A DNA stretch of 30,739 nt, from IMG/VR virus record IMGVR_UViG_3300032086_004450, positions 1 to 30,739 of that record. One strand, given 5' to 3'. The position numbers and the translations under genes are program-made. Below, one piece after another: positions 2,067 through 30,739 of this stretch (the stretch's first letter is position 1; every line of letters begins with the position of its first letter). The notes beneath the pieces were generated by a model. The model had not been told where the DNA came from. It did no database searches and worked only from the letters and a program-made list of their open reading frames with translations. The stretch comes from a virus.

Positions 2067-2081
2067 GGAAGGGATGAATCG

Positions 2082-2585: not shown

Positions 2586-2654
2586 ACTGGCTTCAGGTTG
2601 TTCTTGTTTTGTTCTAACATTCGCTCATTGTCGAGTCGATGAAGGGAGTGAGCA

Positions 2655-3356: not shown

Positions 3357-3469
3357 CGCTCTTGCTTTCCGGCCAAGCTCCTGCAATTTGAAGTCGATCT
3401 AATGGTTGCCGGCTTGGTTTCCGCCTGCGGATAACCATTGCCCTGGTCCGCCCCGCCTATCCGGTGGTC

Positions 3470-8139: not shown

Positions 8140-8375
8140 CCCGCCAGGCGAAGGTTTCTCAGGCAAACCCGACGCAGCCGCGCCCCCGAGACGCTGCGGG
8201 CAACGAACTGGACCAGTGGGGACTGCCCATCGCCGGTCCGTTGCGGGCTGCTCGACTGGCCGAACTGAAGAAGACCGATCCCAATGTAGAGCCGGAGGCG
8301 TGGGCCTCTGCCGGCACCGGCGACGCCAGCGGCGCGTCGGTCGCGTCGGACAAGGAGGATGACGCAAATGGTTGA
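8136..8375 (+). CDS. Small uncharacterised phage protein (79 aa)
   Basis: The gene starts at ATG 8136, overlapping the upstream stop (ATGA) and preceded by AGGAAGGAAAG. The same frame stays open upstream but the ribosome site supports this start. The product is polar with a motif PRDAAGNELDQWGLPIAG and an acidic, disordered tail. It occupies the position of the small Mu gp38-like protein before the tail tube. I do not recognise its family. Confidence 0.65.
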   Translation: MTRQAKVSQANPTQPRPRDAAGNELDQWGLPIAGPLRAARLAELKKTDPNVEPEAWASAGTGDASGASVASDKEDDANG

Positions 8376-9306
8376 TGCCACCAAGGTACTGCTGGCCAAA
8401 AAGGAAACGACATATGGCACCGACGCCGCCCCCACGGCTGCGGCGAATGCCATTCTCACCCGGAACTTTTCGACCAAGCCGGTCGAGAGTGACCGGCTGG
8501 AGCGCAACCTTGACCAGCGCGTCTTTGGCGCGCGGGCGTCGGCCGCCACGAACGAACGCCGCACGATGAGCTATGAAGTTGAGCTGGCCGGCTCTGGCAC
8601 GGCAGGCACCGCGCCCGCCTGGATGGAACTGTTGGAAGCCTGCGGCATGGCGGCGGCCGTGCTGTCGGCCGGCGCCAGTGCCGTTCAGAACTTCGCCGCG
8701 CCCGGTGTTGCGGGCACTTCGCTGACCCAGCATGATTACATGGCTGATCAGCGCCGCAAGACGGTCGGCGCTGTCGGGACGTTCTCGCTCGATTACACCG
8801 CTGGCGCTTATCCCTTTGCCACGCTTCAGTTCACCGGCCTTATTCCCACGGCCACGCCGTTCGACAAAAGCGCCCCAACCGCGCCGGTTCTGACGCGCTG
8901 GAAGCGGCCGCAAGAAGTAAATGTCGACAACACCACCGTATCGCTCGACGGCTATTCGGCCGTGACGCGCAGCTGGCGCGCGGAAGCGGGCGTCGATGTC
9001 GCGCTGCGCAATCTGGTCGGTTCGCGCTATGTGCGACGCGGCAATCACTCCATGACATCGACCTTGGTGATCGAGGCTCCCGACATTGCGGCGAAGGACT
9101 ATATTTCTCGTCTGCGCGCCAATGATCTTGTCGCCTTCAGCCTTACCCATGGGCTGGGTGCGGGCAATATCCTCAACCTCGCCTCAGCCAAGGTCCAGAT
9201 CGCGGATATCGCCGAAAGCGAGGAAAATGACATCCTCATGTGGACGTTGTCGCTGATCCACACCGTTGACGGCGGCGCGGCCGACCTGACCATCACCGCA
9301 ACCTGA
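8368..9306 (+). CDS. Phage tail tube protein
   Basis: The 312-aa product resembles long tail tube proteins of siphoviruses. It begins KVLLAKKETTYGTDAAPTAA, a common opening in this family that marks the start of the tube domain, and contains beta-rich stretches throughout with a closing DILMWTLSLIHTVDG. A perfect AAGGAGG sits at 8352-8358. It is 9 bases from ATG 8368 but touches ATG 8359, so 8368 is the start. No tail sheath gene is present, which supports a non-contractile tail. The next genes are the chaperone pair and the tape measure, as in other long-tailed phages. Confidence 0.85.
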   Translation: MVDATKVLLAKKETTYGTDAAPTAAANAILTRNFSTKPVESDRLERNLDQRVFGARASAATNERRTMSYEVELAGSGTAGTAPAWMELLEACGMAAAVLSAGASAVQNFAAPGVAGTSLTQHDYMADQRRKTVGAVGTFSLDYTAGAYPFATLQFTGLIPTATPFDKSAPTAPVLTRWKRPQEVNVDNTTVSLDGYSAVTRSWRAEAGVDVALRNLVGSRYVRRGNHSMTSTLVIEAPDIAAKDYISRLRANDLVAFSLTHGLGAGNILNLASAKVQIADIAESEENDILMWTLSLIHTVDGGAADLTITAT

Positions 9307-9809: not shown

Positions 9810-10156
9810 AAGCCGCTGCGCGCGCCTGGGCGAGCGGGCGTGGCGGCGTCAGGAAGAAGGCTGACGATATTTTGACCCAGGCCGCGATCATGCCCGCATG
9901 GATGGAAGAGCGGATGGCGGCAGAGAGTCGTGAGTTGGAACTTGCGCCCGATGAGGCCACGCCCTTCAGCCTCTTCCTGTCGCTCGGAACGCAATGGGCT
10001 CGCCATGCCATGACCGGCGTGCGCCTCGGCCTCGACTATTCGGTTATCCCGTCAGTGGCCCAGATGATGGGCATTGCCCTCACACCGCCCATGTTCCTCG
10101 ATCTGCGCATCATGGAAGGCGCTGCCCTGGATGAGTTTGCGAGGGCCAAGCGATGA
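9420..10156 (+). CDS. Tail assembly chaperone, long -1 frameshift form (gpGT analogue)
   Basis: An overlapping frame runs to the stop at 10156, which touches the tape measure start (ATGA). Slipping back one base at GGGAAAC (9800-9806) joins the short chaperone to this frame: after 129 residues, reading resumes at CTG 9806 and adds about 116 residues (LKAAARAWASGRGG onward), giving about 245 in total. The added part has its own helical segments (AIMPAWMEERMAAESRELE). It lacks a credible independent start. This is the classic lambda G/GT arrangement. Confidence 0.85.
9800..9806 (+). promoter_or_regulatory. -1 programmed frameshift site GGGAAAC
   Basis: The heptamer has the form X XXY YYZ in the correct reading phase (G GGA AAC) and is followed directly by the stop TGA at 9807-9809. 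The sequence downstream is very GC-rich (for example GCCGC at about 9812 and GCGGC at about 9843 could pair) and may form a stimulating structure. Confidence 0.88.
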
Positions 10157-13100
10157 GCGATGTCGTCGTCGGCGTTCGCCTCAATGGCGACGGGTCCGGC
10201 CTGGTCGGGCAGCTCCGAGTTTCGTCCAGCGAGTTTGACCGCCTTCGTGCGGCAGAGAAAGGCGTGGCTGACGGCGCGCGGGATGTATCTGCCGCGACCG
10301 GGCAGGCGGCGTCGGGCTTGGCCAACACCTCCGTTGAGGCGCGCAAGGCCGCCTTCAACCTGAGCCACCTCTCCGAGCAATCGGAGGCGCAGACGCGTGC
10401 CCAAAAGCAGGCAGGCGAAGCCGCCAAATCCCTCAACGGCAACATTGGGCTGCAAAGGGCTGGCTGGCAGTCCCTCGGATACCAGATGCAGGACATCGGT
10501 ATCCAATATTCCATGAACACGCGACTGAGCCAGATCATGGCGATGCAGTCGGGGCAGGTGTTCAGCGCCATCAACATGATTGCCCAGGGCAGCGAAAACG
10601 CCCAGGGCAAGCTCGGCAAATTCGCGGCGATCATGGGAGGGCCGTGGGGGATCGCCGCGACGGTCGCGATCTCCCTGGGTTCGGCGCTGTGGAGCCAGTT
10701 GAGCAAGGTTGACGACGCGAGCGATGATGCCAGTCAGTCGACCATCAATTTCAGCAGCAGCCTGGTCGCTCAGCAAAGCATCGTCGCCAATTCGACCGAT
10801 GGCATCAAGCAGCTGGAGGAGGCGACGCGCGGCCTCATCAACACCCAGGCCATCCTGCTGGACAATCTGCAGCTCGTATCGAAAGCGAGTGTTGGCGAGC
10901 TGGAGCGGCAACTCGCCGGCGTAGACGCGCAGATCGACAAGCTGTCGAAATTCAAACCGCCGATCAACCTGATCCCCTTCCTCGACGACCCGGCATCGTC
11001 GCGTATTGCCGATCTGCAGCAGCAGCGGAACGATGTGTTGGGCCAACTCGCCAGCGCGCGCCGGTCGCTGGCCAGCGCGCGGGTGGGGCTGGAGGAACGC
11101 GCCGCGAACGAGCGCGCCGACCCCGATGAACGCGCGCGGGGGGAGATAGAGCGGGAACGCGCCCGCCTTCGTGAGCGCCGCCAATATACGCTGGGCCTTG
11201 AGACCGGATCGGTGCCGTTGGCGGATGGGCCGTCGCTCGATCAGCTCAGCGCCGCCCAATTCGACCAGCAGATGGCGGAGCTGAAGCGCCGGGAGAATGC
11301 CCTGAAGGACAGGGCGAAGCCGAAGAAGGACAACAGCGCAGCGAAGGCGGCGCGCGAGGCGGAGCGTCTGGCTGTGTTCGGCGAACGCGCCGAAGACGCC
11401 ATCGCCCGGATGAACGACCAGTTCAACGCCGCACCGCGCGATATCGACCAGGCGCGTCAGGCGACCGCGAAGCTGGACGACATCATCGCCGATCTGGAAA
11501 AGCGCAAGCCCAAGAATTTCGAGGCGCTGATCGCCCAGGCGGAGGCGGTGAAGCCGCTGATCCAGGAAAGTCTTGTCAGGCCGATCCGGCAGATGCTCGC
11601 CGATCAAGAGCGTCAGATCGACCTGGGGGAGCTTCAGCTCGCCGGTCGGCAGGCTGATGCGGATGCGCTCCAGCTCACCTATCAGCTCATGGACAAGCTG
11701 GGGGTGGAGAGCGAGCAGCAACTCGCCACGGAGTTGGCGAAGCGCGGTGTGACGGAGGACCAGGTCCGCGCGCTTTATGATAATCTGGACGTGATGCGCG
11801 AACAGACCCGCGAAATGCGCGTTCAACAGCAGCTCCAGCAGATGTTCCTGTCCGCCGTTGGCGACATGCGGGAAAATGTCCGGCTGACTTTCGAGAGCCT
11901 TCGGACGGATGGCCCGAAGGCGCTGGAGGACTTCGGCAAGCGCTTTGTCGATGTGTTTGACCGGCTGTTTTCCGAGACGATCACGGAGAAGCTGTTCGGG
12001 GACTTCTTCCGCGATCTGGAAGATGACATCACCGGCGGCGACAAATTGAGCAAGGCCGGCGATAAAATGGCGGAAGCCGTAGGGCGCGCTGCCAGGGAGA
12101 TCGACCGGACTTCCAGCGACATCACCGATCTAGGAAAGGCCGCAGCCACGGCGGCTGCGAATATTAGTGGGGCGAAAGCTTCAGTCCCGGCGGGCTGGGT
12201 TGTTGGTGATGACGGAAAGCCGTTCGATCCCAATGCCCCGGCCGACATCATCGTAAATGGCAATAAGCCGGACATCCTGAAAGATTTGAAGCTGGGGTTC
12301 AAAGAGGGCTACGGTGACTTCTTTGATGAGCTGAAGGGTGATTTTCGTAACATCTTCACCGAGATTTTCGGTGACAAGGGAATATTCAGTGAGTCGCTTG
12401 GAAAAACACTAGGTGGTCTCACGGCGGGTGCGCAGACCGGTTCATTGGCAGGAAACCTCGTCACGGACGTCCTGGGCATCAAGGGAAGTTCTACCGGCGG
12501 CGCGATCGGCGGTGCCATCGGGTCGGCGATCGCGGGTCCGCTTGGGTCGATCGTCGGCGGAACACTCGGCTCCGTAGTAGGTGGCCTTTTCAAGAAGACG
12601 AAATATGGCACTTCGGTCGTCACGGGTGGCGATAGCGAGGATGTATCAACGGCCGGTAACAGCTCCAGCCGCGAAAAGGCGTCGATTGGGTTGGCCAGTT
12701 CGATCCAGGATACGCTGGGTCAGGTCGCCGAGGAATTTGGTGCGAAGATCGGATCGTTTAATACGTCGATTGGCGTCTACAAGGACAAATATCGCGTTTC
12801 CACCACGGGTTATGAGGGTAAGCTCAACTTCAGTGGCGCGAGTGCCAACGGTCTCTACAATTTTGACGATGATCAGGCGGGCGCTATCGCCTTCGCCACG
12901 CTCGACGCTATCCGTGATGGCGGTCTGGAAGGTCTGTCAGATGCCGTTCGCAAGGCCTTTTCGAGCAGCGACGATCTAGACGAAGCACTAGAGGAAGCGC
13001 TGAAGGTCCGCGAAGTCGAAAAGCTGCTGGGCGGTCTGGGCGCTGAGCTGGAGGATCAGTTCAAGGCCTTTGAAACACAGGCGAAGGAGCGGGTGCGCAT

Positions 13101-13644
13101 CGCCACCCAATATGGCTTCGATGTCGTCGAGATCGAAAAGCGCAACGCCGAAGATCGGGCCAAGTTGGTCGATGAAATCCTGAGTGACCGAGTGGGGTCG
13201 CTCCAGCAGCTCCTTAACGACATGAAGTTCGGTGACCTGTTCGAAGGATCGGCCGCCGATCGTCGTGAGGCTCTGTTGGTCGAGATCGCCAAGGCGCGCC
13301 AAGCTGCCGAGGCGGGCGAGGATGGTGCTGCCGACACCCTGGCGGACCTTTTGCGTCAGCTGACTGAGCTATCCCGCGAGGCTTATGGCACGGCGGGCGA
13401 TGAATATGCTGCCGATCGGGACAATGCGGTCTCAGCAGCCGAGGCGGTGATCAAGGCCGAGAATGATCGTATCAAGGCCGCGCAGGATGCCGTTGACGCG
13501 ACAAATGCGAAGCTGGACACCGCCAACGAGCTGGCCAATGAGCAAGTCCAGTATCTCGCGGAGATTGCGTCGTCGCTGGCCAGGGCTGGCGTAGTCGTTA
13601 GCACGGTGGTGCCTGAATTGAACCAGGCGCTGGTGGCGCGTTAG
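10153..13644 (+). CDS. Tail tape measure protein
   Basis: The 1163-aa product is the largest gene of the tail tube module and follows the chaperone pair, as tape measures do. It is mostly helical and Gln/Ala/Glu-rich, with long coiled-coil stretches (for example around residues 310-520). A hydrophobic segment occurs near residues 165-185 (MGGPWGIAATVAISLGSALW), and a Gly-rich hydrophobic stretch near residues 775-815 (GGAIGGAIGSAIAGPLGSIV) could insert into the host membrane. Using the usual rough ratio of 1.5 angstroms per residue, the tail would be about 170 nm. The start overlaps the chaperone stop by four bases. Confidence 0.9.
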   Translation: MSDVVVGVRLNGDGSGLVGQLRVSSSEFDRLRAAEKGVADGARDVSAATGQAASGLANTSVEARKAAFNLSHLSEQSEAQTRAQKQAGEAAKSLNGNIGLQRAGWQSLGYQMQDIGIQYSMNTRLSQIMAMQSGQVFSAINMIAQGSENAQGKLGKFAAIMGGPWGIAATVAISLGSALWSQLSKVDDASDDASQSTINFSSSLVAQQSIVANSTDGIKQLEEATRGLINTQAILLDNLQLVSKASVGELERQLAGVDAQIDKLSKFKPPINLIPFLDDPASSRIADLQQQRNDVLGQLASARRSLASARVGLEERAANERADPDERARGEIERERARLRERRQYTLGLETGSVPLADGPSLDQLSAAQFDQQMAELKRRENALKDRAKPKKDNSAAKAAREAERLAVFGERAEDAIARMNDQFNAAPRDIDQARQATAKLDDIIADLEKRKPKNFEALIAQAEAVKPLIQESLVRPIRQMLADQERQIDLGELQLAGRQADADALQLTYQLMDKLGVESEQQLATELAKRGVTEDQVRALYDNLDVMREQTREMRVQQQLQQMFLSAVGDMRENVRLTFESLRTDGPKALEDFGKRFVDVFDRLFSETITEKLFGDFFRDLEDDITGGDKLSKAGDKMAEAVGRAAREIDRTSSDITDLGKAAATAAANISGAKASVPAGWVVGDDGKPFDPNAPADIIVNGNKPDILKDLKLGFKEGYGDFFDELKGDFRNIFTEIFGDKGIFSESLGKTLGGLTAGAQTGSLAGNLVTDVLGIKGSSTGGAIGGAIGSAIAGPLGSIVGGTLGSVVGGLFKKTKYGTSVVTGGDSEDVSTAGNSSSREKASIGLASSIQDTLGQVAEEFGAKIGSFNTSIGVYKDKYRVSTTGYEGKLNFSGASANGLYNFDDDQAGAIAFATLDAIRDGGLEGLSDAVRKAFSSSDDLDEALEEALKVREVEKLLGGLGAELEDQFKAFETQAKERVRIATQYGFDVVEIEKRNAEDRAKLVDEILSDRVGSLQQLLNDMKFGDLFEGSAADRREALLVEIAKARQAAEAGEDGAADTLADLLRQLTELSREAYGTAGDEYAADRDNAVSAAEAVIKAENDRIKAAQDAVDATNAKLDTANELANEQVQYLAEIASSLARAGVVVSTVVPELNQALVAR

Positions 13645-13816: not shown

Positions 13817-16800
13817 GTGAGCGTCGTCACGCGCATCCGAGCATGGCCCCGTAATGCGGCAACCGGCCTCGTCGTCGCCATATGGCTGGCAGGCGGCAAT
13901 GACGGCACGCCTCACCATGACGGTGTTGGTCACTATCAAGCAGGCCTGATTGCCGATCCCCGCTTTGAAGCCTCGGTCAGTTTCAGCAATGATGGTTGGG
14001 CGGCGCGCGCCGTGCCCACCGCCAGTGCGATTGCCTGGGCGCCGGCCGAGCCGGCGAGACTGGACCCCATGGCTGGCCTCTACTGGCCTGATGCCGCGAT
14101 CGAGATCGATCGAGTGAAGAATGGCGTTGTCACTCGACGCCTGACGGGCACTATCGCTGAAGCGACCATCGCCGAAGGCAAGCTCGTCATTACCTGCGCC
14201 GATCTGGCCAAAAAGCTCGATAATCCCCTCACGACTGCCACCTTTTCCGGCGGCGGTGGCATTGAGGGTGGTGATTTTGCGATTGGACGGGCGAAGCGTC
14301 GCAGCTTCGGCCTGGTGTGGAACGTCGAAGGTCGCCTGCTCGATCAGGCCAATAATATCTATGAATTTGGCGATCCCGCCTTTCCGTTGCAGGGTTGCAC
14401 GGCCCTGCGCGACATGGGCCGCGCGGGGCCGCTCGGCATCGTGGCATGGCAAGGCAGTGTCGGGGCAACATTCAATGCCCTGAAGGCCGCCGTGCCCGAG
14501 CGTGGCGGCGGTGTGTTTGCCCCCTCCATAGCTTGCGCCAAATGGTGGACCCAGCCAGCAGGTCCGCTGACAGCTGATCTCAAGGGGCAGGCGAGCGGCT
14601 ATTCCGAAACTCCGTCTGGTGTTGCGATGCAAATCCTGACGGCCGTCGGTGGACCGGTCATCAGCGACATGGGGCCAGCCAGGAGCGGCGCGGTCGGTGT
14701 GCATGTTGGCGACAACAATGAAACCGCCGCCGCCATTCTGGACCGCCTTCTTCAGCGGATATCCTTGGGATGGCGGCTGAATGCCGTGGGTTCGGTCGAA
14801 ATCTGGGAATATGGGTTCAGCGGTCCTGTCGAGGCGCTGAACGCTATTTTCATCGGCCGTGAAAGCACCATTCATCCCGTCAAGTCGAGACAGATCGGCT
14901 ATAAGAAGAACGAGCGCATCCATGGCGACGGCGAGATTTCGGCCGCCGTCCAGGCCAGCGACGTCGTCTATGAGGACGGGTCGACAGCCGAAGATTACAA
15001 GCCGGCCGAGCCGGGGGCCACCAACGGTGCGACGCCGGAAGAGAAGGATCAGCTCGCCCAACTGGAGGCTGATACGGCCGTCGCTCAGACCCGCATGGCG
15101 CAGGCTGAAGCGGACATCGCGGATCTGTTCGAAACCTACGGCGACAGCGCGAGCGCCGCACAGTCAGCCCTTGCCGCAGCGCAATCGGCGCAGACCGCGC
15201 AGGATGCCAAGGCTAATGCCGAACAGGCAAAAGCAGACGCACAGGCGGCATACTCGGCCGCCGCAGCGGCGCAGAGCGCGGCCGAAGACTTCGCGGACGC
15301 CGCCGACCTGTCAGCCGCAGCGTCCGATACCGCGCGCGCCGCCGCCGTCACGGCAAAAAGTGCGGCCGAAACCGCCCGCGCCCAGGCTCAAGCCGCCAAG
15401 ACGGACGCCGAAGCTGCCTTTTCGGGATCGGCAACGGCGCGGGATGCGGCCGTGGCGGCCAAGACGGCGGCCGAAACTGCCCGCACCCAGGCCCAGACCG
15501 CTAAGACGGACGCGGAAACAGCTTTTTTCAACAGCGCCACTGCCCGCGACGCCGCGCAGGCAGCCAGGACCGCGTCCGAACTGGCCCGCGACAACGCTCA
15601 GACCTATGCTGCCAATGCCAACGGCAGCGCGACGGCGGCAGCAGGCTCGGCAACGCTGGCCAGCACCAGGGCCACCGAGGCCGGCAACAGCGCGACGGCG
15701 GCGGCGGCTTCGTCGGTATCGGCCCAATCCGCCTATACCGATGCGCTTCGCACCGTTTACGTCAGTTCGCCCCTGCTTCCGTCCACCTTCGGGGAAGGCG
15801 CGAAGCATTGGACCAATTTGCGATTTGGTAATCCTGTCACGGTGCCGGCCGCCACCGGCGCGCCGATGGCTGACCCGGACCTTGGGGCCTCTCTGGAAAT
15901 TTCCGATTGGACCAATGCGGGCAACAATATCCTGTCCAAGGGCGCGCTCCCGGTCTTACCCGGCCGCATTTACGAGGTGTCGGCCAAGTTCAAGATCACG
16001 GCATCAGACGGAAGCGTCAGCCTTAACGTGATCCTTGGCGCCATGCTGGACAATTACGGCACCGCAGCGGCGAGCTATGTCGGGGGGCCGGCAACGACCT
16101 GCGATGGTACTGGCACCTTCACGCTGGTCCGCAAGTTCGCGCTCGGCGGCGGCGCCAACACCACCACGATCCCGGCGGATGTCGTTCTTGCTCGGCCGGG
16201 TCTGCGCCTTTCGTCGGCGACCGAGGCTGGCCTGGTCCTGCGCGTGTCTGAGATCCGCATCATGGATGTCACCGAGCGCGAGCAGGCTACGGATCAGGCC
16301 AACGCGGCCGCCGCCAGCGCCTCGTCAGCAGCAACCAGTGCTGGTGCCGCTGGCACGTCGGCGACAGCGGCCCAAACCAGCGCGACCACGGCAACGACTA
16401 AAGCTGGTGAGGCTTCAACCAGCGCATCTCAGGCATCGACCTCTGCCACAAACGCCGCTGGGTCTGCTAGCGCCGCCCAGACCAGTGCGGGGGCCGCTGC
16501 GACCAGCGCATCCAATGCCGGCCAGTCGGCAACGGCAGCGAGCAACAGTGCGCAAACGGCCTCCACGAAAGCGACAGAAGCCGGCCAATCGGCCGCTTCT
16601 GCCGCAACTAGTGAAACCACCGCGACGACGAAGGCGGGCGAAGCCTCGACCAGTGCTTCGCAGGCGTCTACTTCCGCGACCAACGCGGCCGGGTCGGCGT
16701 CATCGGCATCGACCAGCGCCGGGGCGGCAGCTGGCTCGGCGACGGCCGCCGGCAACAGTGCAACGGCCGCGTCAGGTTCGGCGAACACTGCCAGCACCAA

Positions 16801-19800
16801 AGCGACCGAGGCTGGTAATAGCGCAACAGCTGCGGCGACCAGCGCTGTCTCGGCTTCGAGCGCCTACAGCTCTGCTGTGGGTGTGGTTATCCCCACCCTC
16901 CCGGAAAAATACACAAACGCGAACGACCCCTATTTCTCTACCGAGCATGTTGGCGCACCCGCCAGCATCCCTCCCGCGTTCGCCAACGCCACATCGCCGG
17001 AAGGCACCCCGGTCTATCAGATCATTTTGACAGCGAACGGCGGAGCAAATTGGGCGCAGCGCGGGGTGTTCCCGGCGGTCACCGGCCGCGTCTATGAGGT
17101 CGAATTCGAATATCGCATTCCAGCGGTGTCGGGCAGCGTCGATGTCAAAGCCTATGTGCGAAGCCTGGACGGCTCCTACGCCAGCATCACCTCTTCGGCC
17201 GTGTCCATGCCAGCCATTGCGGGGCGACGCACGCAAACCTTCCTGGTCAGCGCTGCCGGCGCCGACATTAACTGGCACTCGACCGCTGTGTGGCTGCGCG
17301 CCTTCATCAACATCACGACCGGTTCGGATGGGTCAATCACCATCCAGCCGCTGCGCATTCGTGTTTCCGATGTCACAGCCCGCGAGGCGGCTAAATCGTC
17401 CGCCAGCGCGGCCGCAACCAGCGCCAGCGCAGCCGCGACCAGTGCGACCAGCGCCGGGCAATCGGCTAGTGCAGCCCAGACCAGCGCGACCACTGCCGCG
17501 ACCCAGGCGGGCAATGCTTCAACCTCAGCCGGTCAGGCATCGACCTCTGCCACGAACGCCGCAGGCTCAGCCAGCGCGGCCCAGACCAGTGCCGGGGCGG
17601 CGGCCACGTCGGCCACGAACGCAGGCAACAGCGCCACGGCGGCCTCGACGAGTGCACAGACTGCCTCCACGAAAGCGACCGAAGCAGCTCAATCCGCCTC
17701 TTCGGCCCAGACCAGTGCCACCACGGCGGCGACCAAGGCGAGCGAAGCCTCGACGTCGGCAACGCAGGCCTCCACTTCCGCGACCAACGCGGCCGGCTCC
17801 GCGTCGTCGGCATCGACCAGTGCCGGCGCAGCCGCTGGGTCAGCGACGGCGGCGGGTAACAGCGCCACGGCAGCTTCGGGTTCGGCCAACACTGCCGCAA
17901 CCAAAGCGACCGAGGCCGGAAACTCAGCAACGGCCGCTGCGAGCAGCGCAGTGTCGGCCAGTTCTGCGCTTGAGAATAGCGGCTATCTCGATGCCGGGTT
18001 TGTCAGCGATTTTAACAATACCCTGAATAGCTGGGCATCTTCCAGCAGCGCCAATCTCACGACTTCGGCCGCTGGGATGCAAGTGGCGGTCACCGGCGTC
18101 GATCCCTACATCTATCGGAGCGGCCTGTCTTTCGACGGTGCGCGGTTTACCCGCGTTGTCGTTTCGCTCACGCGAACTGCGAACCGCTCGTCAGGGACGT
18201 GGGACGGCTCCCTTTACTGGAGCCGGGCTGGTCATAGTTGGGCCAGCGAATACAAAGCCGATACTGCCATGGTCGGCGGTGATCCCTCTCTCAATCAGCG
18301 CACCCAGCTAGTCTACGATATGCCGACCGCGTTCGGCGGAGCGGATTGGACAGCCGGCACGATCACCGGCATTCGCCTCGATCTTGACCAAGGGAATGGC
18401 GGCAGTTTCGTCATTCATTCGATCCGTGTCGTCGGACCGGACGCCCTCGCGCCAGCCAAGGCGGCGCAGGCGGCAGCTACGAGCGCGTCGTCGGCTGCAA
18501 CGAGCGCCACCAATGCGGGGCAGTCGGCCACCAGCGCCACCGCCAGCGCCAATACGGCATCGACCAAGGCGGGCGAGGCGACTTCCAGCGCCGGCTCGGC
18601 GGCGAGCAGCGCGGGCGACGCGCTGGGCTATCGCAACAGCGCGCAGACGGCGGCAACGAACGCGGCGACCAGCGCTACCAGCGCGGGCAATAGCGCGACG
18701 GCCGCCAGCGGTTCGGCATCCTCGGCCGCCACCAGCGCCACCAACGCGGGCAACAGCGCCACTTCGGCCAATAGCAGTGCAGTCGCCGCAGCTTCGACCT
18801 ATTCCTCACTTCAGGAAACGGTCGCCAATCAGAGCCAGGCGCTGCCCTATGATTTCAAGGAGGGCAACGCCTATTGGACCAACGACCGCACGGGTTCCCC
18901 GATTGGGCGACCATTGGCCGCTGGTTCGCTCATCTCCAATGATGCGATCTTTGGCACGAGCTGGGAAATTTCCAACTGGACGAGCGCCGGCAACAACATC
19001 CTGACGAGGGGTGTTGTCCCAATCCAAGCCGGTCGGTTCTACGAAGTTCGGGTTCGTTTCCGTATGATGTCGGGAGCGCCAGCTGAGTTTAATGTGGTCG
19101 CCGCTGGCATGATCGCTGATTATTCCGGCACGGACTTGGCCTTTCGCGGCGGCACGGTAATCAATGCGAACGACGCCAGCGTAAAGGAGGTTGTTGGTCT
19201 ATTCAGCGACACCACAGCCAACGGTGCGACCGCCTTCAGCTCCGAGGCTGTTTTCGCACGCTTTGGTCTGCGGCTGAACCAATCCAAGGCTGTTGTTCTG
19301 CGCATCGCCTCGATCCGCGTGACAGATGTGACCGAGAAGCTGGCCGCCGCCAACAGCGCTACGGCGGCGTCCGGCTCGGCCTCGAACGCCGCGACATCGG
19401 CTACGGCGGCGGGAACGAGCGCCACGGCGGCGCAAGGCTCCGCAACCACGGCGTCAACGCAGGCCGCCAACGCGGCGAACAGCGCCAGCGCAGCCGCTAC
19501 CAGCGCCTCAGCGGCCAGCTCGTCCTCGACCGGGGCAGCGCAGAGCGCTTCGGCTGCAGAGAGCAGCCGGATTGCGGCAGACATTGCTTCAAGCAACGCG
19601 GGCTATATCGATGCCGGGTTAGTTGCGGATTTCACCGATGGCACTCTGAACGGCTTCGCGGCGAATAATGCCACGCTCACTGGAGGGAGTGGCGGTCTTC
19701 GTGTGGTCCCGACAAGTGGCGATCCCTATATCTCGCGCACCGGCCTTTCAATTCAGGGATCGCGCTTCACTCGGGTTCTCATTGAGCTGACCCGAACCGC

Positions 19801-22279
19801 GCCGACGCTAGGCGCTTGGGACGGCACACTTTACTGGGCCACCTCCGGTCACGGTTGGAACGGCAGCTATAGGGCGCTTGCTGTTCAGGGCGAACCGGCA
19901 ATCAACGCCACAACGACGCTGGTGTTTGACATGCCCAACGCGGTTTCGGGCGCGAGCGATTGGACATCCAGCACTATCACAGGCCTGCGTTTCGACACCG
20001 ATAATGCGGTTGCGGTCGGCCGGGAAGTGACGATCCGCTCGATCCGCGTCGTCGGGTCGGACGCGCTGGCGCCCGCCAAGGCGGCGCAGGCGGCGGCGAT
20101 CAGTGCTTCCAGCGCGGCTGGGTCAGCTACGGCGGCCGGTAACAGCGCCAGTGCCGCGCAAGGCTCCGCCACCAACGCCGCGACCTCGGCCGGGCAGGCC
20201 AGCACCAGCGCCGGCCAGGCTAGCACCAGCGCCTCGCAGGCCTCCACCTCTGCCACGAACGCCGCCGGGTCCGCGTCGATGGCAAGCACCGCTGCCACCA
20301 ATGCGGCGCAATCGGCTACAAACGCGGGCAATAGTGCTACCGCCGCCGCCGGTTCCGCGTCGATCGCTTCCACCAAGGCTACAGAGGCTGGGAATTCGGC
20401 GACGGCCGCCGCAGGCAGCGCAGTGTCGGCTGCGTCCAGCTACAATGCGATGATCCAGTCGCAGGCCGCATCGTCGGTTCTGCCCTATGATTTCTCGGAC
20501 GGCCTGAACCAATGGACCAATAGCCGCTCCGGCCTACCGCAGAATGTTGGCAACGCCACGGGCACGGTCATCGTTGGTGATGGCATCTTTGGTCAATGTG
20601 CTGATTTCGCATGGTTTAAAGCAGGCCAGGGCGTCCTGACGCGCGGCGTTGTGCAAACTACCGCAGGCCGCTTTTACGAGGTCCGGGCGCGCATCCGCGT
20701 GCGTCAGGGCGATGGCTCCTACCAGTTCACCATTATCGGCGAATGGATGGATGGAAGTTGCGTCGAGATCAGCAACTCCTTTGTGAGCAATACGACTGTC
20801 GACAGCGGCGTGCGGGAGGTGGTGGCCCTATTCAGCGACACCACGGCCAATGGCGCGACAGCGTGGCCGTCAACCGCCATTCTGGCCCGGTTTGGTCTGC
20901 GTCTTTCGTCTGCGGAAACGGATATGGTTGTCCGTATAGGCTCGATCCGCGTAACTGACGTCACGGACAAAATGGCGGCCGCAAACAGCGCCAGCGCGGC
21001 CAGCACGTCGGCAAGCAACGCTGCCACCAGCGCCGGGCAGGCGGGCGCCAGCGCGACCGCAGCGAGCGGCCATGCCAATACCGCGCAGACGAAGGCAGGC
21101 GAGGCGGCATCGTCGGCGTCCGCAGCGAGTTCCAGCGCCGCCTCCGCGAGCAGTTCGGCCTCCTCGGCATCGAGCAGCGCCGGCAACGCATCAATCTATG
21201 CTGGTCAGGCGCAAAGCGCTGCGACGACAGCCAGCAGCCAGGCGACCGTGGCGACCAATGCCGCCGCTGCCGCGCAGAGCATCGCTACGATCAGCGCGCA
21301 GGTTGCAGCGGCGTCAATCAACCCAAACCCCGTATTTTCCGATTGGCCCAACGGGCAGGCGCTGCCGACCAACTATTCGCTCTGGGCAGGCACCTACATT
21401 ACGACATACAAGATGACCGGGGCGCAAAGTCCCTACGCCCCGATGACGTCAATGGCGTCCAACAGTGAGAATGGCGGCGGCGGTATGCAGGCGACCACCT
21501 ACACGGCGACGCAGGTAATCCAGAACAATATGTGGCTGGTGCTTGAAGTCGACGCGCGTCGAAACAGTGGTGACTTGCGCGGTTCTTGCGCACTTTTTCG
21601 CGTCGTGAACCCGACAGGCAGCACGGCCCAGAACCACTATATCGATCTCTATAATGAGGCCGATACGGCTGGGGTTAGTGGCAATGGCAACACGGGCGTT
21701 AGACGGTGGCGTAAGCTGATACAGGTGACGACGTCATCGGCGCACGGCTATACGATCTTCCTCATGAACCGCTATAGTGGTGCGCCCAGCTACATCACAG
21801 CAGCTACTGCCAACCAGATCGAATGGCACAAGGCCAGCTTCCGCCCGGCCACGGATCAGGAAATCGCGGCCAAGCAGGCAACTGCGGACATTTCAACGCT
21901 GTCGGCGACCGTCGCGCAGCAGGCGTCAACCCTCTCCACCTTGTCGACGCAATATGCCTCGCTCAGCAGCACGGTTTCCGCCCAGGGAGCGACGGTCAGC
22001 CAGCAGGCTAGTGCCATCGCCTCGGTCGAAAACAATGTGACGACGCTGTTCGCGAGATGGGGCTTTGAAATCGACGTGAATGGCTATGTCAGCGGCATGG
22101 TTATGAACAATAATGGCCAGCGCGCCGACCTGACCTTTCGCACCGATCGGGCGCGCTTCATCACGCCGTCGGGCAAGGGTGGTTTCTGGAACCTCGATTT
22201 CGACAGCCAGGGCCGACCGACGCAGACCATCGGCGATGATGCTTCCGGCGTCACCATCGAACTGGGCTATCTCGCATGA
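13817..22279 (+). CDS. Giant 2820-aa tail hub / fibre / tip protein
   Basis: It begins at GTG 13817; the ribosome site is weak. Residues 1 to about 395 form a beta-rich tail-hub-like domain. A coiled coil follows at about 410-443 (LEADTAVAQTRMAQAEADI). Then seven Ala/Ser/Thr-rich stretches of 7-residue repeats alternate with compact beta-domains of about 170 residues, starting near residues 648, 1020, 1387, 1668, 1927, 2213 and 2500. The domains are of at least two kinds. One has YDF/W-T-N openings and ends in RVTDVT. The other opens with GY(I/L)DAG and ends in RVVG-DALAPAKAAQ. A second coiled coil (about 2690-2748) leads to a C-terminus resembling lambda-J-type tip proteins (GFEIDVNGYVSGMVMNNNGQ). 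It probably forms a trimeric fibre that contacts the cell surface. The beta-domains are plausible glycan binders, which is inference. Confidence 0.88.
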   Translation: MSVVTRIRAWPRNAATGLVVAIWLAGGNDGTPHHDGVGHYQAGLIADPRFEASVSFSNDGWAARAVPTASAIAWAPAEPARLDPMAGLYWPDAAIEIDRVKNGVVTRRLTGTIAEATIAEGKLVITCADLAKKLDNPLTTATFSGGGGIEGGDFAIGRAKRRSFGLVWNVEGRLLDQANNIYEFGDPAFPLQGCTALRDMGRAGPLGIVAWQGSVGATFNALKAAVPERGGGVFAPSIACAKWWTQPAGPLTADLKGQASGYSETPSGVAMQILTAVGGPVISDMGPARSGAVGVHVGDNNETAAAILDRLLQRISLGWRLNAVGSVEIWEYGFSGPVEALNAIFIGRESTIHPVKSRQIGYKKNERIHGDGEISAAVQASDVVYEDGSTAEDYKPAEPGATNGATPEEKDQLAQLEADTAVAQTRMAQAEADIADLFETYGDSASAAQSALAAAQSAQTAQDAKANAEQAKADAQAAYSAAAAAQSAAEDFADAADLSAAASDTARAAAVTAKSAAETARAQAQAAKTDAEAAFSGSATARDAAVAAKTAAETARTQAQTAKTDAETAFFNSATARDAAQAARTASELARDNAQTYAANANGSATAAAGSATLASTRATEAGNSATAAAASSVSAQSAYTDALRTVYVSSPLLPSTFGEGAKHWTNLRFGNPVTVPAATGAPMADPDLGASLEISDWTNAGNNILSKGALPVLPGRIYEVSAKFKITASDGSVSLNVILGAMLDNYGTAAASYVGGPATTCDGTGTFTLVRKFALGGGANTTTIPADVVLARPGLRLSSATEAGLVLRVSEIRIMDVTEREQATDQANAAAASASSAATSAGAAGTSATAAQTSATTATTKAGEASTSASQASTSATNAAGSASAAQTSAGAAATSASNAGQSATAASNSAQTASTKATEAGQSAASAATSETTATTKAGEASTSASQASTSATNAAGSASSASTSAGAAAGSATAAGNSATAASGSANTASTKATEAGNSATAAATSAVSASSAYSSAVGVVIPTLPEKYTNANDPYFSTEHVGAPASIPPAFANATSPEGTPVYQIILTANGGANWAQRGVFPAVTGRVYEVEFEYRIPAVSGSVDVKAYVRSLDGSYASITSSAVSMPAIAGRRTQTFLVSAAGADINWHSTAVWLRAFINITTGSDGSITIQPLRIRVSDVTAREAAKSSASAAATSASAAATSATSAGQSASAAQTSATTAATQAGNASTSAGQASTSATNAAGSASAAQTSAGAAATSATNAGNSATAASTSAQTASTKATEAAQSASSAQTSATTAATKASEASTSATQASTSATNAAGSASSASTSAGAAAGSATAAGNSATAASGSANTAATKATEAGNSATAAASSAVSASSALENSGYLDAGFVSDFNNTLNSWASSSSANLTTSAAGMQVAVTGVDPYIYRSGLSFDGARFTRVVVSLTRTANRSSGTWDGSLYWSRAGHSWASEYKADTAMVGGDPSLNQRTQLVYDMPTAFGGADWTAGTITGIRLDLDQGNGGSFVIHSIRVVGPDALAPAKAAQAAATSASSAATSATNAGQSATSATASANTASTKAGEATSSAGSAASSAGDALGYRNSAQTAATNAATSATSAGNSATAASGSASSAATSATNAGNSATSANSSAVAAASTYSSLQETVANQSQALPYDFKEGNAYWTNDRTGSPIGRPLAAGSLISNDAIFGTSWEISNWTSAGNNILTRGVVPIQAGRFYEVRVRFRMMSGAPAEFNVVAAGMIADYSGTDLAFRGGTVINANDASVKEVVGLFSDTTANGATAFSSEAVFARFGLRLNQSKAVVLRIASIRVTDVTEKLAAANSATAASGSASNAATSATAAGTSATAAQGSATTASTQAANAANSASAAATSASAASSSSTGAAQSASAAESSRIAADIASSNAGYIDAGLVADFTDGTLNGFAANNATLTGGSGGLRVVPTSGDPYISRTGLSIQGSRFTRVLIELTRTAPTLGAWDGTLYWATSGHGWNGSYRALAVQGEPAINATTTLVFDMPNAVSGASDWTSSTITGLRFDTDNAVAVGREVTIRSIRVVGSDALAPAKAAQAAAISASSAAGSATAAGNSASAAQGSATNAATSAGQASTSAGQASTSASQASTSATNAAGSASMASTAATNAAQSATNAGNSATAAAGSASIASTKATEAGNSATAAAGSAVSAASSYNAMIQSQAASSVLPYDFSDGLNQWTNSRSGLPQNVGNATGTVIVGDGIFGQCADFAWFKAGQGVLTRGVVQTTAGRFYEVRARIRVRQGDGSYQFTIIGEWMDGSCVEISNSFVSNTTVDSGVREVVALFSDTTANGATAWPSTAILARFGLRLSSAETDMVVRIGSIRVTDVTDKMAAANSASAASTSASNAATSAGQAGASATAASGHANTAQTKAGEAASSASAASSSAASASSSASSASSSAGNASIYAGQAQSAATTASSQATVATNAAAAAQSIATISAQVAAASINPNPVFSDWPNGQALPTNYSLWAGTYITTYKMTGAQSPYAPMTSMASNSENGGGGMQATTYTATQVIQNNMWLVLEVDARRNSGDLRGSCALFRVVNPTGSTAQNHYIDLYNEADTAGVSGNGNTGVRRWRKLIQVTTSSAHGYTIFLMNRYSGAPSYITAATANQIEWHKASFRPATDQEIAAKQATADISTLSATVAQQASTLSTLSTQYASLSSTVSAQGATVSQQASAIASVENNVTTLFARWGFEIDVNGYVSGMVMNNNGQRADLTFRTDRARFITPSGKGGFWNLDFDSQGRPTQTIGDDASGVTIELGYLA
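15145..21310 (+). repeat. Seven blocks of 21-bp / 7-residue repeats in the fibre gene
   Basis: The blocks lie at about 15145-15750, 16290-16860, 17390-17975, 18480-18810, 19350-19590, 20098-20450 and 20985-21310. In protein each unit reads roughly A-x-x-A-x-x-S (for example ASTKATEAGNSATAA, ASQASTSATNAAGSA), with Lys replacing Ser at intervals. The second block holds about 25 consecutive units. Alanine at two positions of each heptad fits a tight helical bundle. Near-identical DNA units make the gene prone to recombination. Confidence 0.85.
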
Positions 22280-22557
22280 GCGGCTGGGGCATGAGGGTGA
22301 AGCGCAACGGCGTGGTGGAGCAGGAGCCGCTCACCAATATGGGACGGATCATCGGACGGGTGGACACCGCCGGCGTGAATGGCTCGGTGAACGATGATGG
22401 CCTGCTGACGGGCACGCCAGAATGGCAGGTGGTTTTCTTCAACGCCCCGCCGCTCGCGGCAATCATGCCGACGATATCCGTCAGCGGGAGCACGCTTTCC
22501 TGGGAATATCCTGCAGGTTCCACCTCGCAGGCCATCATTGTCTACTGGGTGCGCTAG
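22276..22557 (+). CDS. Small tail-fibre-associated protein (93 aa)
   Basis: The start overlaps the giant fibre stop by four bases (ATGA), so its translation is coupled to the fibre. The product is beta-rich with GWGMRVKRNGVVEQEP at the N-terminus and a closing SGSTLSWEYPAGSTSQAII. It has no membrane segment. The position suggests a fibre accessory or tip protein, but I do not recognise the family. Confidence 0.7.
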   Translation: MSGWGMRVKRNGVVEQEPLTNMGRIIGRVDTAGVNGSVNDDGLLTGTPEWQVVFFNAPPLAAIMPTISVSGSTLSWEYPAGSTSQAIIVYWVR

Positions 22558-23301
22558 ATGGGCAGATACGGTACGCGGATCAGAAACCGGCAAACCGGCT
22601 CCATCCAGATCGATGATCTGTATGCCAATATGGCGCTGCGATCGAAGACGACCCTGACGGTCAGCGCCGGCCTGGTAGGAGACAATCTGCGCAGCGCGGC
22701 TTTCACGTTTGTCGCTTCCGAACTGCCGGTGGTGGCTTTCCAATGCTCTGCGCCCACGTTCCTCGCCTGGGTCACCAGAGATAACGGCTCAAACAGTTGG
22801 ACGTTCACATTCTGGAGCTACACCGCCAGCGCATCGACCACTGTCGCCTGCTATGAATTTGGTGAGCCACCTGTCCTCGGGCCGGGGTGGGGAATGAGGA
22901 TCATGCGCGCCGGGCAGGTCAAATATGACAGCCGGCATAGATATGCGCGGATCGCATCAACGCTGCGCGGCGAGTTCGACACGGCGTCAGACCCCGGCAG
23001 TTCCGGGCCTGCCGCCAATCTTCCGGCCGGTGCCACCTACGCGATCGTGATGGGATCAAGGACAGGGCGTAGTAACCGTTTGATAACGCCGGTGGCAGGC
23101 GCTCAGAATGGCTACAACGATAACATGTCGGCGGCTGCACTGGGGGTGGCTGTCAACGGAGCGTCCGTGTCCTCGCAGTATTTGCTGACGCAATTCAGCA
23201 CGACATTTTTTCCCGTGCCTCCATCGCCTCCGCCACCCCCCGGCTACAACTACCGCCAGCCCCAATATTCCTGGGCTGTGTTGGATGTGACCGGCTTCTG
23301 A
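22558..23301 (+). CDS. Tail-fibre-region protein (DUF6453-like motif)
   Basis: The ATG follows the previous stop codon directly. The 247-aa product is beta-rich. It contains GMRIMRAGQVKYDSRHRYARI near residues 105-125, a motif resembling those of tail proteins found beside the tip protein in many long-tailed phages. A Pro-rich tract (PVPPSPPPPPG) near residue 220 separates a short C-terminal segment. It probably builds part of the tail tip. Functional detail is unknown. Confidence 0.7.
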   Translation: MGRYGTRIRNRQTGSIQIDDLYANMALRSKTTLTVSAGLVGDNLRSAAFTFVASELPVVAFQCSAPTFLAWVTRDNGSNSWTFTFWSYTASASTTVACYEFGEPPVLGPGWGMRIMRAGQVKYDSRHRYARIASTLRGEFDTASDPGSSGPAANLPAGATYAIVMGSRTGRSNRLITPVAGAQNGYNDNMSAAALGVAVNGASVSSQYLLTQFSTTFFPVPPSPPPPPGYNYRQPQYSWAVLDVTGF

Positions 23302-23787: not shown

Positions 23788-24111
23788 ATGACTGACACCA
23801 CCACCCTGGCCGAACTGGAAGCCCAGCAGGCCGCCCTTGCCGCACAGCAGACGCAACTTGATCGCCAGCTCGCCGCCGCCTCCCTTGGCGGCGTGCAGGC
23901 CGCCAAGGCCGTCCTCGACCGGGCGGCATCGATCAAGGTTGCCGACGATCTGGAGGCGCTGCTGACGCAACTGCCCAATGGCAGCATGGCCCGCGAGCAA
24001 ATGGCCAACGTCATCTCGGTCAACAGGACGGTCCGCGACCTGCTCGGGCGTGAAGCGACGCGCCTTGAGGCGCTTGCGGCCGAACCCGAGGAAGAGGCTG
24101 TCGCGGAATGA
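23788..24111 (+). CDS. Coiled-coil phage protein (107 aa)
   Basis: The product begins with a strong Gln/Ala/Leu coiled coil (LAELEAQQAALAAQQTQLDRQ) and ends in an acidic tail (AEPEEEAVAE). There is no membrane segment or known motif. Its stop overlaps the next start (ATGA). The function is unknown; it may be a small tail or fibre assembly factor. Confidence 0.65.
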   Translation: MTDTTTLAELEAQQAALAAQQTQLDRQLAAASLGGVQAAKAVLDRAASIKVADDLEALLTQLPNGSMAREQMANVISVNRTVRDLLGREATRLEALAAEPEEEAVAE

Positions 24112-24470
24112 CCGTCAACGCCGAATTTGCAGCCTGGCTCGGTTCGGCTTGCCTCAATGCTGTCGCCAGCTCTGCCGCGCTTGAAACGGCGTGGGGCAGT
24201 CTGGCGGCGGTGGCCGAGAATGTCTCAGCGTTGGCGGCCAAGGCGGACGCTGAAGAAGAAGCGGCCCGGCAACTCGACCTTTTCGGTGCGCCGATGGTCG
24301 TCGAAATCCTCCAGGTGGCAGGCTTGCGGGTCGATCTGATTTGTAAGCCCATCCGCCTGACGGCTTCCCGCGCCGGCTATACCGGCGGCGCCAACGTCTT
24401 CGTCCTGGGAGCCAGAGAATTGGAAAAGGTGGAGCGGACCAACCTGACCGTCTTGAGGAAGCTCGCATGA
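24108..24470 (+). CDS. Uncharacterised phage protein (120 aa)
   Basis: Coupled to both neighbours by four-base overlaps. The first 60 residues are helical and alanine-rich (LETAWGSLAAVAENVSALAAKADAEEEAA). The second half has a short beta-like section (MVVEILQVAGLRVDLICKPIRLT) and ends KVERTNLTVLRKLA. I do not recognise its family. Confidence 0.65.
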   Translation: MTVNAEFAAWLGSACLNAVASSAALETAWGSLAAVAENVSALAAKADAEEEAARQLDLFGAPMVVEILQVAGLRVDLICKPIRLTASRAGYTGGANVFVLGARELEKVERTNLTVLRKLA

Positions 24471-25219
24471 GCGGCGTTCTGATCATCAAACCTCTGACCG
24501 TGGCCATGACGCCGACCGTGACGGGATCAGGGCAGGCGAACCTCCTGACCGCAGACCCCAATGAGGCATGGATTGCTACATCGGTGTCGTCACTCGCCAT
24601 GGATATCGACATGGGCGCAGCAGTCTCTGTCGACAGCTTCTATCTTGGCTACACCAATGCAACTGCGGCGGCAGCCTGGACGATTGCGCGGGGAACCGGC
24701 TTGGGCACTGGCCTCACGACGATCAAGGTGTCTGGCCCGATGCGCGCAGCCGACAGCGAAGGTCCGCGTCATCATTGTTTTGCGCGCCTCGCCGCGCCGG
24801 TGTCCTCGCGCTATTTTCGGCTGACCCTGGTGCAATCGGGCACGGCGCCGCTTTTTGCGGGCGCGCTCGTGATCGGGCGCGCATTCGAGAAGTTCCGGGA
24901 GCATGGGCCAGGCCGGATGCCGGTGGACACCGCGAGTCGCGAAGAACTGCCAGGCGGTGGCTTTGCCATTGGCGATGGCGTGGTCAAATCGCAGTTCGCC
25001 TTCTCTTTCGTCGACCTGACCGATGCGGAAACCAATCAACTCTGGTCGATCAAGAAGGACAGGGGCCTGACGCGACCGGTTCTGGTGGTCGAGGATGCAG
25101 AACTTTCCGCAGGTATGAACGAGGCCATCCACTATGGCGTTTTTGAGCGGTTCCAGGCATATGAGCGCCTCGATCCTGCCAACACGCGCTGGGCAGGCTC
25201 CGTCATCGACTGGGCATGA
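24467..25219 (+). CDS. Tail protein with a discoidin-like N-terminal domain
   Basis: The 250-aa product has two parts. Residues about 20-140 fit a galactose-binding-like (discoidin) beta-sandwich: NLLTADPNEAWIATS, then DIDMGAAVSVDSFYLGYTNA, a TIARGTGLG strand and SSRYFRLTLVQSG. Residues about 150-250 form a second beta-region (FEKFREHGPGRMPVDTAS to WAGSVIDWA). Proteins of this design are encoded near fibres in alphaproteobacterial phages and may bind surface sugars or form part of the distal tail. Both ends overlap neighbours by four bases. Confidence 0.65.
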   Translation: MSGVLIIKPLTVAMTPTVTGSGQANLLTADPNEAWIATSVSSLAMDIDMGAAVSVDSFYLGYTNATAAAAWTIARGTGLGTGLTTIKVSGPMRAADSEGPRHHCFARLAAPVSSRYFRLTLVQSGTAPLFAGALVIGRAFEKFREHGPGRMPVDTASREELPGGGFAIGDGVVKSQFAFSFVDLTDAETNQLWSIKKDRGLTRPVLVVEDAELSAGMNEAIHYGVFERFQAYERLDPANTRWAGSVIDWA

Positions 25220-27232: not shown

Positions 27233-27275
27233 GCGCTCGTCATCCCCATTCCTGCCGGGCGACGTGAAGAGCGTC

Positions 27276-28217
27276 ATGTGCTGGCCAGGGAGTTTGGCAT
27301 TGAACGATAATGGCGCGGTGATTCGCAAGGCGATCGAATGGCGCGGCGCGCCTATGGCGCTGGCCACGGTCATCTCCACCTGGGGATCGGCCCCCCGGCC
27401 CAGGGGCAGCCATATGCTCGTTCATCAGGACGGTCGACTGGAAGGGAGCATTTCCGGCGGTTGCGTCGAAGCCGATGTGCTTGAGCGCGCGGCTGCCGTA
27501 ATCGCCGGCCGGCCGGCCCATATCCAGACCTATGGCGTGGCCGACGGTGATGCCTGGGAAGCGGGGCTGCCCTGTGGCGGCGAGATCGCCGTGCTGGTGC
27601 AGCCAGTGGCGGAGGCTGGCTTCGCGCCCGCGCTGTTCGATCGCATTGCCGCTGAAAGCGCGCAGGGACGAGCGCTCACGCTCGCCACCGACCTGAGCAG
27701 CGGCGAAACGCGGGAGGGCGTCCGGGACGGCGTCTTCCTCAATCGCTATGATCCGCCGCGGCGTCTGCTGATTGTGGGCGCGGTGCAGATCGCCCAGTCG
27801 CTTGTCCCGCTGGCGCAGGCCATCGGCGTCCTGCCAGTGGTGATCGACCCGCGTGGGCGCTTCCTGACCGCAGAACGCTTTCCCGGCGTCGAACTGGATG
27901 ATCGCTGGCCCGACGAGGCGATCGCGGCGCGGCATCCTGGCGAATCAACGGCGGTCGTGACGCTCAGCCATGACATCAAGATTGACGACCCGGCGCTGGC
28001 CGCGGCGCTGCGCGCGCCAACCGGTTATGTCGCGGCGCTGGGATCGCGACGCAGCCAAGCCGCGCGGCTTGACCGGCTGCGCGCGATAGGTTTTTCCGCG
28101 CAGGCGCTGGTCCGGATTGACGGACCGGCAGGGCTGGACATTGGCGCTATCGGACCGGCGGAGATTGCGCTGTCGATCACGGCGGGGATGGTGGCTGGCT
28201 TCAACGCAAAGGGATGA
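27276..28217 (+). CDS. XdhC/CoxI-family protein
   Basis: The product (about 313 aa) has the N-terminal XdhC/CoxI domain (PMALATVISTWGSAPRPRGS, then EGSISGGCVEAD with its conserved Cys) and a C-terminal Rossmann-like domain opening LLIVGAVQIAQ near residue 165 and continuing VVIDPRGRF and VVTLSHDIK. Family members insert or sulfurate the molybdenum cofactor for xanthine dehydrogenase-type enzymes; no such enzyme gene is in the window. The start is uncertain: ATG 27276 follows GAAGAG, while TTG 27300 follows AGGGAG with 7-base spacing and would also suit the family length. It lies 43 bp after the S24 gene. Confidence 0.88.
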   Translation: MCWPGSLALNDNGAVIRKAIEWRGAPMALATVISTWGSAPRPRGSHMLVHQDGRLEGSISGGCVEADVLERAAAVIAGRPAHIQTYGVADGDAWEAGLPCGGEIAVLVQPVAEAGFAPALFDRIAAESAQGRALTLATDLSSGETREGVRDGVFLNRYDPPRRLLIVGAVQIAQSLVPLAQAIGVLPVVIDPRGRFLTAERFPGVELDDRWPDEAIAARHPGESTAVVTLSHDIKIDDPALAAALRAPTGYVAALGSRRSQAARLDRLRAIGFSAQALVRIDGPAGLDIGAIGPAEIALSITAGMVAGFNAKG

Positions 28218-28222
28218 AGCGA

Positions 28223-28256
28223 GTGCCCCCTGCCGCAAGGGACGGGCAGGGGGCAC
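28223..28256 (+). terminator. Strong hairpin after the XdhC-family gene
   Basis: GTGCCCCCTGCC (28223-28234) pairs perfectly over 12 bp with GGCAGGGGGCAC (28245-28256) across a 10-nt loop, beginning 6 bases after the stop codon. No T-run follows, so it is either a non-canonical terminator or an mRNA-stabilising hairpin. Confidence 0.55.
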
Positions 28257-28309
28257 ATCCCCAGGCTGTCGGGCACCAAGGATGGGCGGCCCGTATCAGA
28301 GGTGTATGA

Positions 28310-28386
28310 AACAGCAATAGCTAAAACGCCGAAAATCTAAATTTTCCGTTCGTAAAATTGCAATATATTGTAATAAAGTTGCAAAA
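28310..28386. other. AT-rich convergent intergenic segment
   Basis: This 77-bp stretch is very AT-rich compared with its surroundings. It lies between the rightward XdhC-family gene and the leftward cstA-ybdD operon. It contains the palindrome CAATATATTG (28361-28370) and an inverted repeat GAAAAT/ATTTTC (28331-28346). It may help end transcription from both sides. No gene is seen. Confidence 0.5.
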
Positions 28387-30617: not shown

Positions 30618-30739
30618 GCCGCCTCGTCGATGGTTGGGAGACCTGGCCGTAAAGCGGGGCGGGCTTGCGGGTCGGCTCCGGGGATGAACGGCGTCACCCT
30701 AAGCAGCTGCGCTTCAAAGACAACCGCCTACCTGCGGCG

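Follow-up and report, generated by a model that had tools for sequence, protein, structure and literature searches.

Whether a tail hub, a modular fibre and a fibre tip can be joined in one polypeptide is the question raised by a gene in a viral DNA of 30,739 nucleotides (IMG/VR record IMGVR_UViG_3300032086_004450), referred to here as the window. The initial annotation, made from the letters alone, had read the 2,820-residue product as a hub, nearly 2000 residues of fibre and a lambda-J-type tip, with inserted beta-domains that looked as if whole stalk-plus-domain units had been duplicated. That observation was confirmed overall and its interpretation is supported, with the amendments given below.

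The giant gene is intact and encodes a hub, a fibre and a tip

The frame at 13817-22279 starts with GTG and encodes 2,820 amino acids without an internal stop. The gene is repetitive and repeats are prone to mis-assembly, so an assembly chimera or repeat-collapse artefact had to be considered. A separate IMG/VR contig (3300032081_001312, the companion contig) nevertheless encodes an identical protein and matches the window at 99.995% identity, with one mismatch, over 21.2 kb; its DNA agrees with window bases 1-3816 and as far as base 27232. The fibre of a related phage, L035, is also colinear with that of the window at 61% identity. Changes relative to related genes are concentrated at third codon positions, and dN/dS estimated from codon-position differences was 0.13 for the hub (versus a second relative, L003), 0.23 for the fibre (versus L035) and 0.26 for the tip. 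The gene is therefore real and under purifying selection along the whole chain. With the second contig and this selection in hand, an artefactual frame was rejected as highly improbable, and the gene is not broken, which the initial annotation had named as a possible refutation. A Pfam search of the full protein returned zero family matches, and the plasmid collection held no relative of the whole protein.

The layout of the protein was derived by composition segmentation and self-alignment. Residues 1-411 form the hub, residues 412-2740 a fibre of eight stalk segments and seven beta-domains, and residues 2741-2820 the tip (Table 1). Self-alignment of the seven domains gave the order A1-A2-B1-A3-B2-A4-C, which agrees with the A, A', B, A, B, A, C proposed earlier; the distance from hub to tip had been underestimated and measures ~2,330 residues.

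Table 1. Position of the hub-fibre-tip gene, its parts and the tail genes upstream of it in the window (residue numbers of the 2,820-residue protein in brackets).
Feature	Nucleotides	Strand	Basis or remark
Tail tube protein	8359..9306	+	Pfam Phage_tube_2, E 1.4e-12
Tape measure protein of 1,163 aa, immediately upstream of giant gene	10153..13644	+	phrog_167
Hub-fibre-tip protein, 2,820 aa, ~280 kDa	13817..22279	+	intact ORF; identical in second contig
Tail hub (1-411), phrog_8917-type	13817..15049	+	phrog_8917, E 6e-23; Foldseek hub matches
Junction linker YEDG...KPAEPGATNGA (384-405)	14966..15031	+	fibre joins different hubs here
Stalk 1 (412-646), Ala-rich, without proline, weak 3.5-residue periodicity	15050..15754	+	
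Domain A1 (647-824)	15755..16288	+	
Stalk 2 (825-1020), Ala heptads	16289..16876	+	period power 38 vs <=7.5 in 2,000 shuffles
Domain A2 (1021-1192), divergent A type	16877..17392	+	
Stalk 3 (1193-1383), Ala heptads	17393..17965	+	
Domain B1 (1384-1551), CBM-like	17966..18469	+	R4C match; pLDDT mostly 70-88
Stalk 4 (1552-1669), predicted helical	18470..18823	+	structure model
Domain A3 (1670-1844), CBM-like jelly roll	18824..19348	+	pLDDT mostly >90
Stalk 5 (1845-1923)	19349..19585	+	
Domain B2 (1924-2091)	19586..20089	+	56% to B1; direct R4C tblastn match
Stalk 6 (2092-2216)	20090..20464	+	
Domain A4 (2217-2388)	20465..20980	+	49% to A3
Stalk 7 (2389-2496)	20981..21304	+	
Domain C (2497-2685)	21305..21871	+	of the fibres compared, only L035 and L041 have homologues
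Short stalk 8 (2686-2740)	21872..22036	+	
Tip (2741-2820), lambda-J central-straight-fibre-like domain	22037..22276	+	9ze4_N; phrog_2589, E 1e-6

Genome context points to a Mu-like siphophage of a sphingomonad

The companion contig carries genes for a transposase (phrog_310), a DNA transposition protein (phrog_296), terminase and portal, and the window carries Mu-like head genes (phrog_976, phrog_1005) along with tail tube, tape measure and endolysin genes. This gene content is that of a Mu-like transposable siphophage. Two different CI-like repressor genes lie in the phage part (1311-2066 and 26390-27232). The companion contig stops at base 27232, which is the end of the second repressor gene; the exact phage end is uncertain. 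Bases 27233-30739 are likely host DNA and hold an XdhC-family gene (+ strand) and cstA (- strand). The cstA region shares 81% identity with the Sphingobium faniae genome. Sphingomonads produce much polysaccharide. Among 401 genomes of this sphingomonad family, the hub profile was found in 19, where most of the open frames are 650-1,450 residues long, and type A domains in one; the giant array is rare in that host family.

The N-terminus resembles siphophage tail hubs

The family phrog_8917, of unknown function, matches all 13 aligned hub members (the window hub and 12 further). An AlphaFold2 model built from these 13 sequences had a mean pLDDT of 55 and was good only at about residues 1-50 and 70-135. 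The best PDB matches of this low-confidence model in Foldseek (E 4e-5 to 1e-3) were T5 pb3, the GTA particle, the JBD30 baseplate, Neisseria and Mu-type tail proteins and the R4C baseplate, with lambda gpL ranking lower; nine of the first ten were tail or injection-system hub components. No credible family match for the hub was found in NCBIfam, and a sequence search of the hub profile against the PDB gave nothing credible, which leaves folds and PHROG relatives as the basis of the assignment. Profile and fold evidence concur with the hub proposed in the initial annotation, and the predicted structure does show hub similarity. These results support residues 1-411 as a predicted siphophage tail hub of the T5 pb3, gpL-gpJ or GTA type. 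In sequence, the window hub is of another family than lambda gpJ, matching phrog_8917 and not phrog_31.

The hubs of L035 and three further relatives (L037, L038 and L040) fall in one superfamily with that of the window, matching phrog_8917 with E 1e-42 to 2e-69 and aligning with the window hub in hhalign with a probability of 99.9 (E 2.8e-32). A tblastn search of 50,697 phage records gave no relative of the window hub, no cultured phage with the window hub or fibre array was found, and PF13550 was absent from five of the relatives' contigs. Further downstream in the window, a 120-aa protein (24108-24470) matches the C-terminal end of phrog_8917 (516-609) and is perhaps a split-off hub domain. 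A 250-aa protein (24467-25219) weakly matches the galactose-binding-like F5/8 type C family; its appearance makes it a candidate for the distal tail protein, although its gene is placed a long way downstream from the hub.

The fibre alternates alanine-core stalks with carbohydrate-binding-module-like domains

The eight stalk segments contain no proline across 1,107 residues. We measured the 3.5-residue period of small hydrophobic residues, mostly alanine, in the seven larger stalks against 2,000 shuffles of each. Five of the seven were clearly above all shuffles and a sixth barely so (8.5 vs 7.9), with stalk 1 below the shuffle maximum (7.3 vs 7.7). In the strongly periodic stalks both heptad core positions are nearly all alanine, and in a model of B1, stalk 4 and A3 two long helices span the stalk. 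PHROG tail-fibre families match the stalks and the T7 gp17 fibre (7boz) does so weakly, matches that low complexity makes partly compositional. The summed stalk length was computed as ~164 nm if continuous. The tape measure of 1,163 aa compares with that of JBD30, whose residues are numbered up to 1158 and whose tail is 180 nm long (PMC11445458), and by this comparison fibre and tail may be of similar length.

Among the side domains, A3 and A4 are 49% identical (BLASTP E 8e-49) and B1 and B2 56% (E 6e-58). A1 is 37% identical to A3 (E 7e-35), 34% to A4 and 25% to A2 (E 3e-16), and A2 is ~25% identical to the other A domains. No significant sequence match was found between types A and B. A type-B HMM matched residues 490-628 of the R4C megatron protein (E 2e-24), within a region (482-629) called a carbohydrate-binding domain like CtCBM11 (PMC10276861). 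PDB fold matches of the two-domain B1-A3 model included a CBM22 tandem, CBM16, CBM11 and CBM4, matches made to the model as a whole and not assigned to one domain or the other. The model also matched R4C 8gtc_M (3.0 A rmsd, 28% identity) and the central fibre gp20 of mycobacteriophage Douge (8zdp); its viral matches included CenC-like carbohydrate-binding proteins and J-tip proteins. Cry- and Vip3-type insecticidal proteins were also among the fold matches, which we read as a shared beta-sandwich fold only. Six of the seven domains, those of types A and B, thus appear to have a carbohydrate-binding-module fold, as judged from the predicted jelly rolls and the homology of B to the R4C domain. 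This is consistent with the potential sugar-binding domains proposed earlier. A carbohydrate-binding-module fold alone does not always mean sugar binding, and galactose-binding-like folds are common tail-protein decorations from which binding cannot be assumed (LSH1 paper, PMC13243795); homology and fold suggest that A and B may bind glycans.

The tip resembles the end of the lambda J shaft

Residues 2696-2781 match PDB 9ze4_N (E 2.4e-5), named as the central straight fibre domain of tip attachment protein J, and the tip is conserved in L003 and L038. In lambda, a receptor-binding domain comes after the central straight fibre (PMC11101478). No such domain follows here, as 39 residues remain past the 9ze4 match before the chain ends at residue 2820. 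Because the chain ends at this match, whereas lambda continues, the window protein has the end of the J shaft without lambda's terminal receptor-binding domain. The lambda-J-type tip of the initial annotation is thus borne out by PDB and PHROGs for the central straight fibre and not for the receptor-binding part. A tip-related stretch also occurs in four shorter hub relatives (L011, L026, L027, L028) and weakly in two others (L019, L029). In these shorter proteins the sequence continues past the tip-like stretch, and in the window and L003 it ends there.

Two genes directly downstream (22276-23301) encode proteins of 93 and 247 aa with a common short WGMR-like motif, in one copy in the former and apparently two in the latter. 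Both proteins are possibly tip-associated. A structural search with the 247-aa protein gave no useful match.

The fibre is a mobile module

A search with type A domains found eight viral loci: one is the companion contig, and the other seven belong to phages whose giant proteins share this plan. The open frames are 2,906 (L035), 2,577 (L037), 2,588 (L039), 2,499 (L040), 2,647 (L041) and 2,215 (L038) residues long, and that of L036 is truncated. By HMM, the hub subfamily of the window was in none of these seven. The N-terminus of L036 is of true J type (phrog_5616, E 2e-136; phrog_31, 'central tail fiber J', E 1e-12) and is fused to the same stalk/A/B array as in the window, and that of L041 is a third type (phrog_6278). 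The fibre alignment between window and L035 covers residues 374-2788; the hub, domains 2-3 and the tip have low identity and the remainder is ~70% identical. L003 is 75% identical to the window in the hub and has the tip in common, with a different stalk and mostly unrelated domains. The junction motif YEDG...KPAEPGAT recurs in L003, L035 and L038, where the hubs before it differ in lineage. Similar arrays on three kinds of N-terminus indicate, at the level of sequence, that the fibre moves as a module.

Side-domain units are duplicated and exchanged among relatives

In L035 a stalk-plus-A unit of 372 residues and 1,116 nt is repeated in tandem (L035:5469-6268). Nucleotide identity is 100% in six successive 100-nt blocks (~600 nt) and 95% in the blocks flanking these, giving 95% or more over ~800 nt; there is a small chance that this tandem duplication is an assembly error. 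The L037 and L039 proteins are mostly 94-100% identical and diverge at ~1300-1485 and ~2131-2330, stretches of one globular domain each, with a milder dip in identity near 1831-1881. The tandem unit of L035 and the two-cassette difference between L037 and L039 together indicate that both whole-unit duplication and single-cassette replacement occur among the relatives.

In the window itself, A3, A4 and B2 share 66-70% identity with the corresponding L035 domains and 49-53% with their own paralogues. Recent duplication within the window was therefore rejected, and these copies predate the split from L035. At some positions in the window the change came through cassette replacement and not duplication. 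The stalk-plus-domain duplication proposed earlier is accordingly seen directly in L035, whereas the window copies are old and in part replaced.

A probable central fibre with multiple side domains

From what was established directly (the intact gene, its layout, the homologies, the predicted folds and the exchange of modules among relatives), we consider it likely that the protein is tail hub and central tail fibre in one chain, a trimeric multi-domain adhesin of a Mu-like sphingomonad siphophage. The end of the tail would be closed by residues 1-411 of three chains, whose C-terminal parts would run jointly along the tail axis as alanine-core coiled-coil stalks. Each fibre would then bear three copies of each of the seven side domains, with a J-type beta-prism tip at the end. 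The side domains may grip exopolysaccharide or other surface glycans multivalently, and this grip would possibly draw the hub towards the cell and start hub opening. The tip, which has no lambda-type receptor-binding domain, may be completed by separate proteins encoded downstream. The array would evolve by recombination: with similar stalks on both sides of each bead, single cassettes could be exchanged, duplicated or lost, and the whole fibre could transfer onto a different hub. We propose more tentatively, as an idea that may well prove wrong, that the repetitive stalks act as built-in homology through which single carbohydrate-binding-module cassettes are swapped, duplicated and reordered on a central fibre of about tail length, and that the array moves between unrelated hubs. 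If true, this would amount to combinatorial host recognition within one gene.

The side domains could instead be decorations or clasps on an array that serves mainly as a spacer to extend reach, with specificity residing in the tip or in the small downstream proteins. The frequency of galactose-binding-like folds in tail proteins, where fold does not imply binding (PMC13243795), and the 93-aa and 247-aa genes, whose products could sit at the tip, speak for this arrangement. We nevertheless regard it as rather unlikely. Cassettes are swapped between near-identical phages while the stalks stay fixed, the pattern expected of specificity domains, and B is homologous to a domain that the R4C authors assigned to carbohydrate binding.

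The stalks also resemble PHROG tail-fibre repeat families, as would be expected if a lateral, Stf-like side-fibre protein had been fused by chance to a hub-like domain. The Ala/Ser/Thr-rich repeats are like the stalks of T7 gp17-type proteins, which are side fibres, and the lambda Stf stalk is probably similar. Unlike those of Stf and T7 gp17, however, the window stalk is part of a hub protein, and globular domains break it into segments. The array is fused to a hub and a J tip, and in L036 to a J-type N-terminus, which argues for a central position and makes a laterally splayed fibre quite improbable.

Lambda gpJ likewise joins hub domains, a fibre, an alpha-helical shaft and a beta-prism central straight fibre in one chain (PMC11101478), but its chain includes two FNIII domains and ends in a receptor-binding domain, whereas the window protein has ~2,330 residues of stalks and carbohydrate-binding-module-like domains. 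The R4C megatron gp16 has one carbohydrate-binding domain, homologous to B, in a GTA-like megatron (PMC10276861), in contrast to two B and four A domains on a coiled coil in the window. Douge gp20, which resembles the B-A module in fold (PDB 8zdp, PMC13033339), is a three-fold central fibre encoded separately from the hub in a phage of a mycobacterial host, with no sequence match to the window protein. Domain exchange between near-identical receptor-binding proteins follows the same principle (PMC10684548), but the tail-fibre example there is a C-terminal exchange, whereas the window group has internal cassette swaps and whole-unit duplication. J-like central fibres, carbohydrate-binding-module-like side domains and domain shuffling are thus each already known. 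What is unusual is that a single chain of 2,820 residues unites hub, fibre, J-like tip and such domains, that the side domains are so numerous, and that cassette exchange and hub switching can be read directly from its relatives.

In lambda-type central fibres specificity lies at the tip, whereas the seven side domains of the window protein probably line the tail axis. The swapping and duplication of beads one at a time points to a quick route for changing the adhesion target and offers a testable system for how alphaproteobacterial siphophages change receptor range. L037 and L039, which differ mainly in two cassettes, form a natural pair for comparing host range.
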